From contig CAJNOJ010000126.1 in NCBI GenBank assembly GCA_905250025.1, forward strand, positions 124,001 to 188,000: 64,000 nt of DNA, read 5' to 3'. Both the position numbers and the translations under genes were made by a program. The notes beneath the pieces were generated by a model that was not told the DNA's origin, did not search any database, and worked only from the letters and a program-made list of their open reading frames with translations. This document shows positions 42,419 to 50,620 of the stretch, piece by piece. How positions within the stretch are numbered: the first letter of the stretch is position 1; the number at the start of each line of letters is the position of its first letter. This DNA is from Adineta ricciae (taxonomy: Eukaryota; Rotifera; Eurotatoria; Adinetida; Adinetidae).

Positions 42419-45400
42419 TTAAACTTCTGTAACATTCGATAAACTACCTTGTGATTCTCTTCGGTTAACTAAAGCAGATGATGTTCGTAATGATTTCTTT
42501 TGAACAGATTTATCTTGTTTGGTTTTGTTAACTGTCGAAGTGGCTTTGGATTTCCCGCCATTTGGATTGACTTCTAGTGGAAATCGATACGGTGATCTAC
42601 TTGGTAGTCGTTGAATGCCACTGCTAACTGGTTCAATAACCTGAGGAGTGAGAATAGTAGCAGTAGCAACTTTTTCTTCCAATGGTCGTTGAGGTGGTGG
42701 ACCGTATACATAACAATGCGGATGTTTTTTTTGAGCTCTTCTTAATTGTTGTTGACGCCATGCTTGCATATGTTGGGCATGACTCATTTGTGTACGTAAT
42801 GTTGACAGATTTGCTACTGAAGAACCAGCTGTGATAGGATAGTCAGCTGTAGAGTGATTCGATTCAGGAACACCCTGAAAAATCGGTGTACCATTGTTTT
42901 GAGATGTTACGATATGTGTTGGGTCAAGAGACGCTTGACGTTGATAGGCCGGGCGTTTCAGTCTAAGTTCACTGCCAGATGTCGACGATGGTGGTTGAAT
43001 GGTGACAGTCGGTAGTTGCGAGCTACGCGCCTTAGGAGCGAAATCAGATTTTGCTGCCTGACTAATGATTGAAGATGCATTGGAGCGAGATGTAGTCGGA
43101 TGTTGTGCAGTAACATCGTATAGCATTTGTGAACGAACAGCAATGTATCGTTCTGCTGGGCTCTGAGGAAAATTGTCAGCAGCAGCAGCAGGAACGACTG
43201 TTGAAGGTACTGAAAGCAGACGATTTATTGCTTGAGGTCGTATTGCAGGCGCTATTTGTATTTCCGGCGTCGGTGTTGTCACCCTAAGAAAGATGGGAAA
43301 ATGTAACTCATCAATAGAATTGAAACTTTTTCGAGCACATACTGTACTCTTCGTTGTATCATTTCAGGAGCAATAATTGTTGGGACAGATTGTGAAGTGG
43401 GTATAATGGCAGCCGCTTGTACCGGCTGCTGCTGTTGTTCATCCATTAGATTGCTTCGTTGTATACGTAAGAGAGCAAGACGGTTTTGTGCTTGTTTCCT
43501 TAGATCAAATAGGTGATAATTGTTAAGTATTGTATATGCAAGAAACCAACGAAAACGTGCTTGTTTGCGTTTTCGAATCTTCTCTAATTTACGAGCTTCC
43601 TTTGGGTCAACCATATGAGCGAGAGTCGAATAGGCTGTAGATATGTTGTCAACAACGATCTGTTTGCCTGGTAAAGGTTTGCCCAATGGTTTATCTTCTT
43701 GATCATCATCATCATCATCATCTCCTTCTTCTTCTTCTTCTTCCTCGTCTTCTTCTTCATCAACATTTTCTTCTTCTCCAGTTTCCTCTTCAGATTCTTC
43801 TTCTTGGTCAGTTTCCACAGTCGATTCTTCCGTTTGCTGTTCTTCTTCTTTCAAAGCGTTCTGTGATGATCGTTTACTTGCTTGCTTTATGGAATTATTC
43901 GACGAAGATTGAATGGATCCTGTATGAGAATAGGAACGATTGATAACTCCTGATGGAACTGTGTTCTGGATAATTTCAGAATAATGACTACTATCATCAT
44001 TCGTGTTACTATGACCATGTGTCAACGACGAATTAGTCGAACGTCGTTGAGTTAGTGGAGGTGTACTTTGTTGAGCTTGACGATAGGATACATTTCGTAG
44101 AGAATGCAAATCACTTGATTTCGACGCTTGATCATATGGCGGTGGAGAATAAACATTGCTCAATCGAGCAGCACGTTCTTCATCTGTAGGTATAGTGTCA
44201 TAATGATTTTCTTCTTTGATTCGTGAAACAGCCGTGGAAAGCTTCGGCACTATCTGGCCTACGGTATCATACGATGTCAATAATAACTCTTGTACTGGTG
44301 CCGATGTCAGCATACTGCCATCGTCGAGTGCTTCTGGTGACGATTGTTTTGTCGTTTGTCGATCGAATGCAGGTTTTTTCTTTGGCATAATCATTCTAAC
44401 CGTGTCGTAGGTTTTAACAATACGGCCGCCATCATCGTCTTCATCGTCTTCTTTTACGAGTGCTGGTTTAGAAACTTTTTCCTTCGAGGGCTTCTTCTTG
44501 ATGGATTCGTGCCGCTTTGGTGCACCATCCTCGTCTTCATCGTTGTCTTGTTTAGTTTTCGCTTTTCGTCGTTCTTTCTCTTTTTTCTTCTTTTCTAATT
44601 CCTGTTTTTTCTTTTGAGCAGCGATCTGTTTCTGTTTCGACACACCACCATCATCATCATCGTCATCGATTTCTTGTTTAACTTTCACTCTGCGTTGTTC
44701 CTTTTCTTTCTTCTGCTTCTCTAATTCTTCCTTCTTCTTTTGAGCTGCAATTCGTTCACGTTTTGAAATGCCACCATCATCGTCATCATCATCATCTGCA
44801 CGATTCGGTTGCTTCTTCTTCTTCTTCTCGGCGTCTTTCTTCTTTTTCTTCTCTTCAAGTTCTTTCTTTTGTCTAGCAATCAACTTTGGATTAATACCAC
44901 CGTCATCATCATCGTATTCTTCTTCCGCTAAGTCTTGTCGTCGAGGTGCACGCGGTGGTGATGATCGTGGAATGGGTAGTAGCACAGGCTGTTGCTGAGG
45001 TATTATTTTTGATATAGAAGATATAGATGGTGGTTTTATTCCGCCGTCATCGTCAAAATTATCATCATTGTCCTGTTCGTTCTCTGATGAGAGGTCTGCA
45101 CGAGGAGGCACTGCAGGGGGAAGATCCGATAGTGATGGTAAAACAGGTCGCTGTTGAGGAATAAGTCGCGCTATCGTAGAAATCTCTGGTGTTGTAGGAC
45201 CACCATCTTCTCCTTCTTCTTCTTCTTCTTCTTCAGCAATGTTATTATCAATACTTGGCTTCCGTGGTTTCGATTTCTGACTGTCTCTGTCCGAATTCTA
45301 ATAGTATGCACAAGAATGAATATGTCTTCGTATTTTACATGAATCTTACCGATGATGGACTTGGAGATTTTTTCTGTGTCTTTGTCTCTCTTATCGAAAG

Positions 45401-48400
45401 ACCTTGCTCATCATCATCGTCATTACTGCCGTTGCCGCTGGCAATGGAGTTTCGCTTTTTAATGCTTGATTTCGCTGGCTTTATGCGTTCTTGTGCGTCC
45501 ACTTTTGTCTTCTGCGGTATCGTTTTACTTCCATTACGAGTTGGCTTTTCCATCGGCTTCTTAACTATCGTCCTTTCCTGAACTACATGGACATCATCGT
45601 CCAGTTCACCTGGGGCAATGCAACACTCATCATCATAACACCTTTTCGGTCGACGTTGAATAACATCGTCATACAGTGAATAGCAAAATGCTATAAGAAA
45701 CAAATCAACATAAGAACTCAATTGTGCACAACTCTTACCCAGCATAATAGGATTGGTATGTGTGACTTCCATATGTAAGTAGGACACATACGCAGCGAAG
45801 CCAAGATCTAAACCAAAAGATTAACTATTTCCTCTTTGGCAGAGATGCGGATGGCTCACCAAATTTTTCTAATGGCCGTCCAAGAAAACTGCAGTCAAGT
45901 CGGGCCATGTATACAACATTCAGTGCGGTCGCTTTGATCAAACGGATGATACACGACGCAATACCGAGGAAGCAATCTATTTTATCACGAAAGAAAAAAT
46001 ATTCATCATTTCTCTCTTTCTCTTCGATAAACTTCTTTCTTACCAGCAAAGAAATTGAAATAGACGAATATGGCATAAGTTTTCCGATTTTTCAAATTTA
46101 ACTTTTCATCCATATCTTGTATAAAGAAGAACTTTCCTGCTGACGATGTACTAACCATTTTTAGCAAGTAAACCACCAGAACAGGCACGGTAAAAGTGAG
46201 CACTAATTCAATATAACGTAATTGCAAAGAGATAATTCGAAGGAAACTGAGAATTAAAAAGATCAGATGAAAACAAATCACAAATCCCCAAGCCATATAA
46301 CCAACGAGAAAGCCTGAGTAATGAACCGATTTCGATGCTATGGAATTCGCAGTGAAATTCGCTGCTGATGGCACATCTTCGTAAATACCTTTGTATAGAT
46401 CCTTGCGATGTTTTTTATAATTTTGCATGCCAATATATAATTGAAATCCATAGATGCAAACAGTGATAACCGCACTAGCGATAATTTCTAATCGTAACGA
46501 AAATATTCCTTTGAATTCTAAAGAATTCAAATGATTAAAAAAAACATCTAAAATTGCATCAGCGAAAACGAAGAAATGACTCACCGATATTCAATGTGCT
46601 TTCAATGTAATATCGAACGAATGAGATATGTCCTGTAGTTCGAGAGATATACAGAAAAACGAATGTGCAAGCCAAATAGTAGAGAAAAACGATTGCCACG
46701 GTATATGTACAAGTTGCCATTGTGGTAAAACGAAAATCATCATCCCATTGATAAATTGAACGAAAAAACTTTTTCACACGTGAGTCATTGTCTTTATTTA
46801 ACATTTGATTTTCATGTTCGAAATCTTCCAATTGGTCTATATTCGCTTTTGTCGAATAATTCGTGCGAACCGTCGGCAGGTTGCGTCGAAATAATTTTTT
46901 AACGTAATATTTCGCAAATTCAGATTCATCATGTTGAACAACAGGTGCCACCCATATACTTTGCTTTTTCTTCATTGGAACATAGATGGAATCGTAAGCA
47001 AAACGTACCCATAGCTCGGCACCAATATACGACAACAAGATAAAATGTGGAGTGTTTTTTATTAATCCGTAGATGATAAACCACGTGCCAAGCTCCTAAA
47101 ACATTCATACAGTTATTAGTCAAAATCAAAAGGTAACGTACCACTCGTAATTTTGCCTCTTCCAAAGCGGAGTAGTATCTTGATAATGGTAAAAAGCCCA
47201 TACACGAGCCTTCGCGAATAATTGCATAAATAATATCACCTAATATATACAGACAAACAAAAAATCGTACAGCAATATTACGTAATTGTAATGACGCCAG
47301 CACCGGATAATATCGCAGTCTAGAAAAGAATTTGTTTATCTATTTGATATCAATGTAAGGAATTTGCTCTTACCCAACAAGAATAACAATTGCTATTCGG
47401 ATAAGTAATTCGATAAGAACGCCCTGATTCAGTGGATCACCTGTACTAAATAGCAGTTCTTCAAAGATTTTCAGTACTTCAAATGCAAGGATGCCGAAAA
47501 CTGTGGCGGTAGTAAAACGATTTGTTGTTCGAAATGGTTCGATTGGGGCGATCAAGCCTACATACTTCTTCGTAAGTTATATCCGAGCAAAAACTAAATC
47601 TTACCCGGTCGACCATCACAAAGATCTGTACATCGTTTTTCTCGTTTAATCGACCAGGAAAATATTAAAATTAAAGCCGATGCAATGGGGAAGAAGATTA
47701 AGTTTCCCAATCGATAATCCGATATGTTTTCACATCGTGTTACTAAACGTAACGTATCATTCACTAGCAGATCTAATCGTGTCTCATCTGTAATATCGTA
47801 TCTATACGATGAGAAATGCGTGTATGTTGTCACGATAAATAGCAGTGATAAGAAGAATACACTCAATCCACCAACCCAGCACAATCGAACCAGATCACGT
47901 TTATTCGGGCTTTTTAGCGGACCAACATTGTGTGGTAGACTAAACAGAAAACGAATGAAAATCAAATGAGAAATGCAGAACACTCAAAGAAAATAGTTGA
48001 TACACGTAAGAAAACTAAGAGTTATTTCAACTACAGCTGAGTTTTAATTAAGAATAAACAAAAGAAAAACTAGCATGTGAAAGAAAATTGCTAGAAATTG
48101 GCATACGTTAAATATCGATAAAAATCCCGTCTATTGGATATGAATATATATACATATATATTTATATTGAAAGACAAATATATGAAAAGAAAAGAAATCA
48201 CTTACATGAAATCCATAATTTCTTGAGCGAGAGTCTGCCGACGATCTTCGACATGATACTCTGATAATGGAATCTTCGCAATAGTTTGAATATCATTTTC
48301 GCTTCTGTACAAACATTATTGAATTTAATATCAAATCAATATTTCATATTTACTTCTGACTTGGCACTAATCGTCGTTTATCTTCTTTCGTTTCCTTTCT

Positions 48401-50620
48401 CTTCGCTTGTTTTCTTTTCTTCTGAACTTTGAGACAATATTTACAAAAACTACAAATCAACGTAGACTATCTTACAAGCGTACAATCCGAACACTTACTC
48501 TCGACTCTGTTTGAAACACCCGAATAGTATCCAACGGACAGGTTTGAATGACAAACCATAAAGTACAAAGATCAAAATAAATCCGATCAAGATCTGTTTG
48601 CCTTGTTTCGAAACTAAAAATAATTGAAGGATATTATCTGCATGTGCTCCGGGCAAACAGATAATATTCTATTCATAACACTCCAATGAGGCATTTTGAA
48701 ATATGTACTGGCAAAGATTACACGACGAATAAAAAGAAATGTAAAGTGGTATGTCATCTACTTAATGCTTTTTCTTTTCTTTACAGATTTTGAACTATTT
48801 AGCATGAAAGAATATGTTACGTCATCGACTTGAAGAGGTAAGATATCCTTTTTTTTACATCGTTTCAAGTTAAATATCCGTCAGATTTAATTGCTTCTTT
48901 TTCTCTAAATGATGACTTCCTTTTGTCTTATCTTGAGTATAATGTATATGTCAACAAAGGACGACCTTGAGAGAAAAATATCTCCTCTGACAAGCAAATA
49001 TGACTGATGTATACCTTTGTACAAATGTCACATTTCTTTATCTCGAAAGTTTTTTTTTCCTTCATTCTAATCAACATTTCTCTTGCAAACTAAAATAAAA
49101 TAAGTCTTACTTCTTTCACAGAGAAGACCACCATATAGAAACGAACAGGAACACTTGAATCCCGATAATGTATTTACGCAACGGCCATGTTTGCCACATA
49201 CGATATTTGCAAAGCAAAAATCAAGTACTAGATGAATTCAAACAAGTCGCATAGGAGAGAAAAAAAATCGAAATTAATAAATTAAACGTACCATATTCAC
49301 ATACATGATCGTAGTCCGTGTCATCTTCCACATTACTCAATGAACAAACGATTTTATCTGACACTAAATATGTCGTTAGAAGGTAAACTGTTGAATCATT
49401 GCTGATAACATTCCAGTCGAGTTGATCACAGATTCCTCGAATATCTTCCAATTGCTCGAATTCATCTCCTTCATCAGCGGAGTCGAGATCGTCGTATTCG
49501 TATTCATCTAGTTCTGTTGTGTAATTCGATGGATACGCATCTGTCATGTTCTGCTCTTTGTAATAATCATAATCATCGTAAACGTCCGGATCGATATGGT
49601 CATGAATGAACTTTTGTTTGTGTTTTCGAGTCGATTGTTTGACCTTTTTCGAACGCCTTGATATGCGTAAACCAGCTTCGTTTAGTTCATTAATTACTTT
49701 TTCTTTTAATTTATAATAACGAACGCGAACTTCACGAAATTTATTCTTCATACGTTGCCAACGACCTTGATCATCCATCAAAATCTCGGCAATTCTCTTT
49801 CCTTAAAAGCAAAAGAAGACGACAAGTGCGACAACATATGAATAATTTCCTTGAATTAGTCTCTGCTTGTTTCTTTACCTTTCAATAGCAGAGGATCGAT
49901 ATCGATCATTAATGAAGTAAGATTATTTTTCGTTAATACATGAGCGGCATAGAATAATTCCACTGTATTGCGAATTTGCATTAAGTTTGAATGATTTGAG
50001 TGTAACAAATTACATGTCTGATTGGCCTCACTAGGCGTTGAAGTAACATTCGATAAGTAATAACAAGAGCCACCTAAACGTCTCCAGCCTTTGGGACAAC
50101 GGAATCGATTGACTAAAATCAAACAAGTTCAATCATTTTTCTTTCATTCCGCGTCAATACTATTAATATGTAAATAAGTATAACTATCGATTTCATGCAA
50201 CCTTGATTGACAAGTGTTTATTAACAAAACATATTCGAACGTCTTCTTCGATACTCTCCGTCAATGCTGATAATTAACTTTTGATAAAATACAAACAAAA
50301 CACATTTTCGATCGACAAAAAAGGCTTCATTTCATCTAGGCACTCAGACTGCATATGTCGTTCTAAGCAACTCAATGCGATTTATAGCAAGAGATGACCT
50401 TCAATTTAACAAAAAAAAAAAGAGAGACTCGTTTATCATTCATCGAACTATACGTACCAGCTTCTTTGATTTTACCGATTATTGATGGAAATTTATCCCA
50501 TAGTGAAGTAATATCATCGAGTTCGAGATTTTGTAAATAAGCTGGCAATGCACATCTTGTCGGTTCAAAAAGGAAACACGTTAAAACAACAATGATCAAT
50601 GCTAAAGTAATGTTCTTCAT
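42419..50620 (-). CDS. C-type-lectin/EGF/STRA6-like multispan receptor (fusion architecture)
   Basis: Seventeen exons join in exact phase to 2130 residues: 50458-50620, 49879-50112, 49292-49801, 49111-49227, 48499-48613, 48354-48449, 48206-48304, 47605-47939, 47374-47557, 47142-47319, 46585-47095, 46044-46547, 45860-45976, 45739-45807, 45350-45690, 43343-45297, 42419-43283. Order: signal peptide; C-type-lectin-like half domain (CPKGWRRLGGSCYYLS, residues ~56-132); acidic/Tyr linker to ~300; EGF (six Cys, ~303-340); TM (IGFILIFVLYGLS); cytosolic basic loop; a second TM (LVRLCWVGGLSVFFLSLLFI); then a STRA6-like receptor: CTDLCDGRPGLIAP (STRA6: ...CVRGRPGLP), YYPVLASL, RLIKATALNVVYMARLD, YLHMEVTHTNPIMLAFC. 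Residues ~1100-1770 are a disordered D/E/K insert with DDDDGG repeats; the STRA6 C-terminal block RFRWFLAYTILNN...LRKQ follows. STRA6 takes retinol from RBP4 into cells. Whether this protein transports retinol is not known. Confidence 0.78.

Follow-up and report, generated by a model that had tools for sequence, protein, structure and literature searches.

The 64,000-nucleotide stretch of Adineta ricciae DNA analysed here (contig CAJNOJ010000126.1, positions 124,001 to 188,000, i.e. C126:124001-188000; hereafter the window) carries on its minus strand, from 50620 to 42419, a lectin/EGF/STRA6-like gene whose 18 exons encode 2128 residues in one frame. The order of modules in the protein is signal peptide, C-type lectin-like domain (CTLD), EGF-like module, two extra helices, STRA6 core and long tail. 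That a CTLD/EGF head and a STRA6-like core are joined in one gene, and that this gene belongs to a large family in the same genome (scanned over 130 Mb in 1033 contigs), appears from the sequence to be very nearly certain. The fusion of CTLD/EGF head and STRA6 core is real and recurrent, not a one-off. For the best explanation as a whole, i.e. this architecture together with a mechanism in which the head would act in docking, a single compromise probability of about 0.6 seems appropriate.

The splice sites were picked by the GT-AG rule and by homology to a second copy of the gene on contig C40 (L009), and all 17 introns are accordingly GT-AG by selection. The C40 copy, with 17 exons and 1862 residues, has the same module order and splice phases. 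A first-pass annotation of the window had described seventeen exons joined without a phase error; the in-frame joining holds, but the count rises to 18, as a 24-nt exon lies inside what had been taken for a single 266-bp intron (47940-48205). This microexon (exon 8, 48107..48130) has AG/GT flanks and a phase of 2 at either end; C40 keeps both its splice sites and this phase. The succession of signal peptide, lectin-like region, EGF module, two helices and STRA6 blocks given in that annotation is indeed found in one protein, and recurs in C40. In the window protein CPKGW lies at residue 60, the EGF module starts at 305, and the STRA6 blocks GRPGLIAP, YYPVLASL, MEVTHTNPIML and RFRWFLAYTILNN are at 562, 629, 1065 and 1770, respectively.

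Exon 1 (50458..50620), which was aligned to C40, supplies the start codon, the signal peptide (hydrophobic residues 1-19) and the beginning of the ectodomain. The latter (residues 25-341) contains exactly 12 cysteines in both the window and C40 proteins, six in the CTLD and six in the EGF module, and in the window it has seven N-glycosylation sequons. The N-terminal part of the CTLD, with cysteines 60, 71 and 88, is encoded by exon 2 (49879..50112), as assigned by a profile match to paralogue CTLDs; exon 3 (49292..49801) encodes an acidic stretch inserted in the loop region of the CTLD and then the C-terminal part of the domain, with cysteines 257, 285 and 300, ending HVCEY. Exon 4 (49111..49227) encodes the EGF-like module, the six cysteines of which (307, 313, 319, 328, 330 and 339) are in EGF spacing, as had been proposed. 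The CTLD and EGF exons are bordered by phase-1 junctions at all four positions, a pattern typical of extracellular modules spread by exon shuffling.

The lectin-like region had been described as a half domain; the three additional cysteines in exon 3, which bring the CTLD total to six, suggest that it is probably a whole domain with a replaced loop. The six cysteines of a long-form CTLD are present in five window-type copies (window, C40, C247a, C282 and C259). A five-sequence profile of window-type CTLDs matches that of the C56/C95 pair over 52 columns (probability 96.9, E 1.4e-10), the maximum among 20 column-shuffled controls being 1.7, and the relatives on C56, C29 and C95 themselves match Lectin_C above the Pfam cut-off. 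When the CTLD was searched against the PDB without its insert, 17 chains had an E value of 10 or less, and 15 of these are named as CTLD proteins; the best match has an E value of only 0.014, and the matches lie mostly within the first 35 residues. The alternative is that the ectodomain has only a degenerate half CTLD, with exon 3 being unrelated filler; the end of the profile match after 52 columns is consistent with this, as is the absence of a W.W or WND motif from the window-type copies. However, the C-terminal part, which is recognised only by its three cysteines and by an exon end of the form VC.Y before a phase-1 intron, keeps both of these features in the window-type copies read, and the full CTLD on C95 ends likewise, making a half domain unlikely.

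Extra transmembrane helix A is encoded by exon 5 (48499..48613) and is followed by a linker in exons 6 (48354..48449; basic, its acceptor picked by homology to C40) and 7 (48206..48304); 19 K+R and 11 D+E residues lie between helices A and B. Exon 9 (47605..47939) contains helix B and STRA6 TM1, ending GRPG. The core continues through exons 10 (47374..47557), 11 (47142..47319, with YYPVLASL), 12 (46585..47095), 13 (46044..46517, the strongest Pfam RBP_receptor stretch), 14 (45860..45976) and 15 (45739..45807, with MEVTHTNPIML). The AFC block and the start of a cytosolic insert are in exon 16 (45350..45690), the long charged low-complexity insert and then the C-terminal STRA6 block RFRWFLAYTILNN in exon 17 (43343..45297), and the C-terminal tail and stop codon in exon 18 (42419..43283). 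The insert (43343-45690), with its KKKKE and DDDDD runs, is much shorter in C40. The intron between exons 10 and 11 (47320-47373) is not present in C40, where the two exons are fused, so that one copy has gained it or the other has lost it.

The assignment of the core is secure by profile, PF14752 (RBP_receptor) giving 156 bits for the window protein and 130 for C40 against a cut-off of 25, and by the match to zebrafish STRA6 (5sy1, E=1.4e-14, chain residues 27-567). In a simple hydropathy scan nine segments, not all of them necessarily true helices, follow helix B in the window and C40 proteins, and fewer were found in L021. The two added helices, also described in the first-pass annotation, are found again in a paralogue on C181, in which both helices, A and B, are encoded together with PF14752 positions 10-604 of 605 in one uninterrupted open frame of 747 residues; because they share one frame with the core, the extra helices in that copy need no splice inference.

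The main competing gene model is that two neighbouring genes are present, one for a surface protein with lectin and EGF modules and another, for STRA6, that begins near 48.6 kb, perhaps with spliced-leader trans-splicing. The division would fall in intron 4 (48614..49110), which at 497 bp is long in the window and is single copy in the genome, and on C95 a STRA6-like gene does have as its neighbour a CTLD-EGF unit in which no core was detected. By contrast, the equivalent EGF-to-helix intron in C40 is only 50 bp, with matching phase, and no methionine follows the EGF module until residue 442 (window) or 481 (C40), in each case past helix A. Given the 50-bp C40 intron and the recurrence of the same order at 28 of the 30 places described below, two separate genes are judged very improbable, in agreement with the single gene originally proposed; a further, STRA6-only isoform may exist beside the fusion. 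The possibility that intron 4 is a repeated element was rejected, as a DNA search of the genome returned the window alone.

Constraint was assessed by comparing the window and C40 copies, in which synonymous differences approach saturation (overall pS 0.72). The two parts of the CTLD share 74% (N-terminal) and 61% (C-terminal) identity, the insert 51%, the EGF module 81% and the core 73%, with corresponding pN/pS ratios of 0.19, 0.32, 0.44, 0.10 and 0.22; identity in the tail is 33-41%, except for the C-terminal block (68%). That the locus is a pseudogene or an assembly chimera, with no functional gene, is scarcely credible: copies that are fragments do exist, on C359 (core end only) and C75 (CTLD N-terminal part), but the frames of the window and C40 copies run uninterrupted for 2128 and 1862 residues, both copies show constraint, and the module order recurs on many contigs.

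The extent of this recurrence, for which the following counts are lower bounds, emerges from searches of the whole genome. PF14752 gave 34 matches at 27 places, and protein searches added C247 (twice) and C282, making 30 STRA6-like places. At 28 of these an EGF module precedes the core on the same strand, against about 0.003 per place expected by chance, at a distance of 394 to 2403 bases (median 945.5) from the first core match; of the two places without one, C455 is at a contig end, and C359 yielded nothing of the core but its end in the 4.5 kb covered. The EGF profile used was built from family members, single-sequence EGF searches having come first. Tandem copies are present on C4, C181, C247, C263 and C300.

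The distribution of the CTLD is narrower. A search of the whole genome with Pfam Lectin_C gave one match, on C95, probably since exons split the domain, and profiles were therefore built from the family itself (window, C40, C247a, C282, C259, C56 and C95b, which match by construction). Matches from outside these members were to C29 (a near twin of C56), C247b, C75, C219, C25, C21 and C38. The N-terminal part of the CTLD is clear, with profile E values of at most 4.3e-6, at 11 of the 30 places (C40, C259, C282, C247 twice, C29, C56, C219, C25, C21 and the window, which was counted from a protein search), and weak at three (C38, E=0.004; C95, 0.015; C14, 0.25). It was not found with these profiles at 13, including C263a, with only 362 bases of flank; C300b, C455 and C359 are left out of the count. 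In a tree of 24 sequences of the core end, presence of the CTLD requires one change, as well as which none of 500 shuffles did, a result helped by near-copies and qualified by the weak evidence on which C14 and C95 were labelled and by the long branch of C259. With zebrafish STRA6 added and C259 dropped for its long branch, the CTLD-bearing rows group again (90/84). Because the zebrafish branch is too long and the root unsure, gain of the CTLD is not told from loss by the tree.

Several loci vary this arrangement. At C95:77500-78700 (L012:5500-6700) a CTLD-EGF unit, which contains the one match that the genome-wide Lectin_C search gave above the cut-off, is followed by a single helix and then by what looks like a stop; a STRA6 core was not found behind it up to L012:9500, and the unit is possibly a head-only paralogue. 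C282 has two successive stretches like the same part of the STRA6 core (L043:845-1483 and 2276-2914), a pattern resembling a partial tandem duplication. Further EGF modules of the type found in this family, at C310:114537 (58% identity) and C57:326463 (53%), lie on contigs for which no PF14752 match is listed, and are perhaps further diverged or head-only copies. On C75, where the CTLD N-terminal part is present, neither EGF nor core was found in the 4.5 kb downstream. Within the window, neighbouring open frames over 3254-53587 match the HLH, SLC52 riboflavin transporter, GILT, amine oxidase, trefoil, PXA, 7tm_1 and CDV3 families.

Some observations weigh against the fusion protein as described, or against extending it to a function. 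Of the three domains named in the first-pass annotation, STRA6 alone is recovered above the Pfam cut-off in the window protein. Lectin_C gives no match there, the only lectin-type match being UL45 at 13.0 bits (cut-off 27), and the profile match to paralogue CTLDs is confined to the N-terminal part. The EGF module reaches 14.9 bits where 21.5 are required, and the EGF modules in the four paralogue stretches tested (L014, L015, L028 and L038) are below the Pfam cut-offs too. As the CTLD and EGF module of the window protein thus fall below threshold, the CTLD assignment rests on kinship with relatives. The regions of the extra helices are poorly conserved between the window and C40 copies (42% and 33% identity). 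Conservation, moreover, is silent on cargo, carrier and expression, and retinol as a ligand is suggested by the family name alone.

With respect to topology, the signal peptide and the helix pair would position the head on the outer side and give the core the orientation known for STRA6. The CTLD and EGF module would be extracellular, with helix A running inward, the basic linker in the cytosol and helix B running outward, followed by the core and then a long cytosolic tail. A tentative proposal, which we regard as having rather less than an even chance of being correct, is that the head serves to dock a carrier or a surface ligand and in this way delivers a lipophilic cargo, which might be a retinoid, a carotenoid or a sterol, to the cleft of STRA6; docking in this manner would replace the contact that RBP4 makes with extracellular loops in vertebrates. 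Since the EPN, QPD and WND motifs usual in calcium-dependent sugar binding are absent from all seven CTLDs read, docking by protein contact would be more likely than by sugar binding. The genome has carotenoid-oxygenase-family and lipocalin-family matches, such that cargo and carriers are conceivable; none is linked to the window protein. The conserved tyrosine motifs of the tail may add signalling.

Those same motifs bear on a different possibility, i.e. that head and core are joined as described, with the family being sensory or immune: the heads would detect environmental or microbial ligands, and the core and tail would act as a signal transducer instead of carrying lipid. The size of the family with its tandem copies, and the concentration of variability in the CTLD loop region and the tail, are consistent with such a role. 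Five YxxI/L/V sites are at aligned columns in the window and C40 tails, which on sequence grounds may be a lead for signalling only, and a signalling tyrosine, Y643, is reported for mammalian STRA6 in an excerpt of PMC8595884. The level of conservation of the core is, however, that expected if transport is kept, and a purely sensory or immune family is considered unlikely, the docking proposal being preferred.

Vertebrate STRA6, the vitamin A receptor, has a short outer N-terminal tail. The window core resembles that of vertebrate STRA6 (zebrafish 5SY1) and RBPR2 in its matches to PF14752 and 5SY1 and in keeping the C-terminal block, but differs in that about 690 residues separate the AFC and C-terminal blocks. 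Moreover, a signal peptide, CTLD, EGF module and two helices precede the core in the window protein, whereas vertebrate STRA6 comprises nine transmembrane helices, with the RBP-binding region between helices 6 and 7, according to excerpts of PMC3546623 and PMC8595884. In an excerpt of PMC5954442 the flexible N-terminal region of zebrafish STRA6 is proposed to sense ligands yet to be identified; the matching region in the window protein is a real multidomain head.

The juxtaposition of CTLD and EGF module is also reminiscent of selectins and other EGF-plus-CTLD surface lectins. In selectins the CTLD precedes the EGF module, as it does here; the window protein is unlike them in its polytopic core and in the absence of the sugar-binding motifs from the CTLDs read. 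Secreted C-type lectins of Brachionus likewise combine EGF and CTLD in one rotifer protein, with the EGF module before the lectin domain, the reverse of the window order, as excerpted from PMC8878817; the same excerpt gives the combination of a single EGF and CTL domain as previously undescribed in Lophotrochozoa, in a survey that left out transmembrane proteins. Among the matches listed from the open-licence literature, no title describes a CTLD/EGF-STRA6 fusion.

STRA6 is stated to be absent in invertebrates in an excerpt of PMC5133064, and an Aplysia transcript named STRA6 appears in one of PMC8195618; the roughly 30 STRA6-like places in A. ricciae, nearly all of them EGF-headed, contradict a simple statement of absence. 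It may be that an invertebrate lineage made the STRA6 core into a large modular surface-receptor family, with an EGF module and two helices on nearly all copies and a CTLD on one clade, in which an exchangeable head, not RBP4, decides what is delivered or sensed; the odds of this are put somewhat below even. If correct, it would amount to an RBP4-independent way of running STRA6. The architecture of the family hints at a different recognition of what STRA6-like receptors take up, its CTLD-bearing and CTLD-less clades providing natural test pairs, and the EGF-headed family offers a handle on how the STRA6 core works without RBP4.

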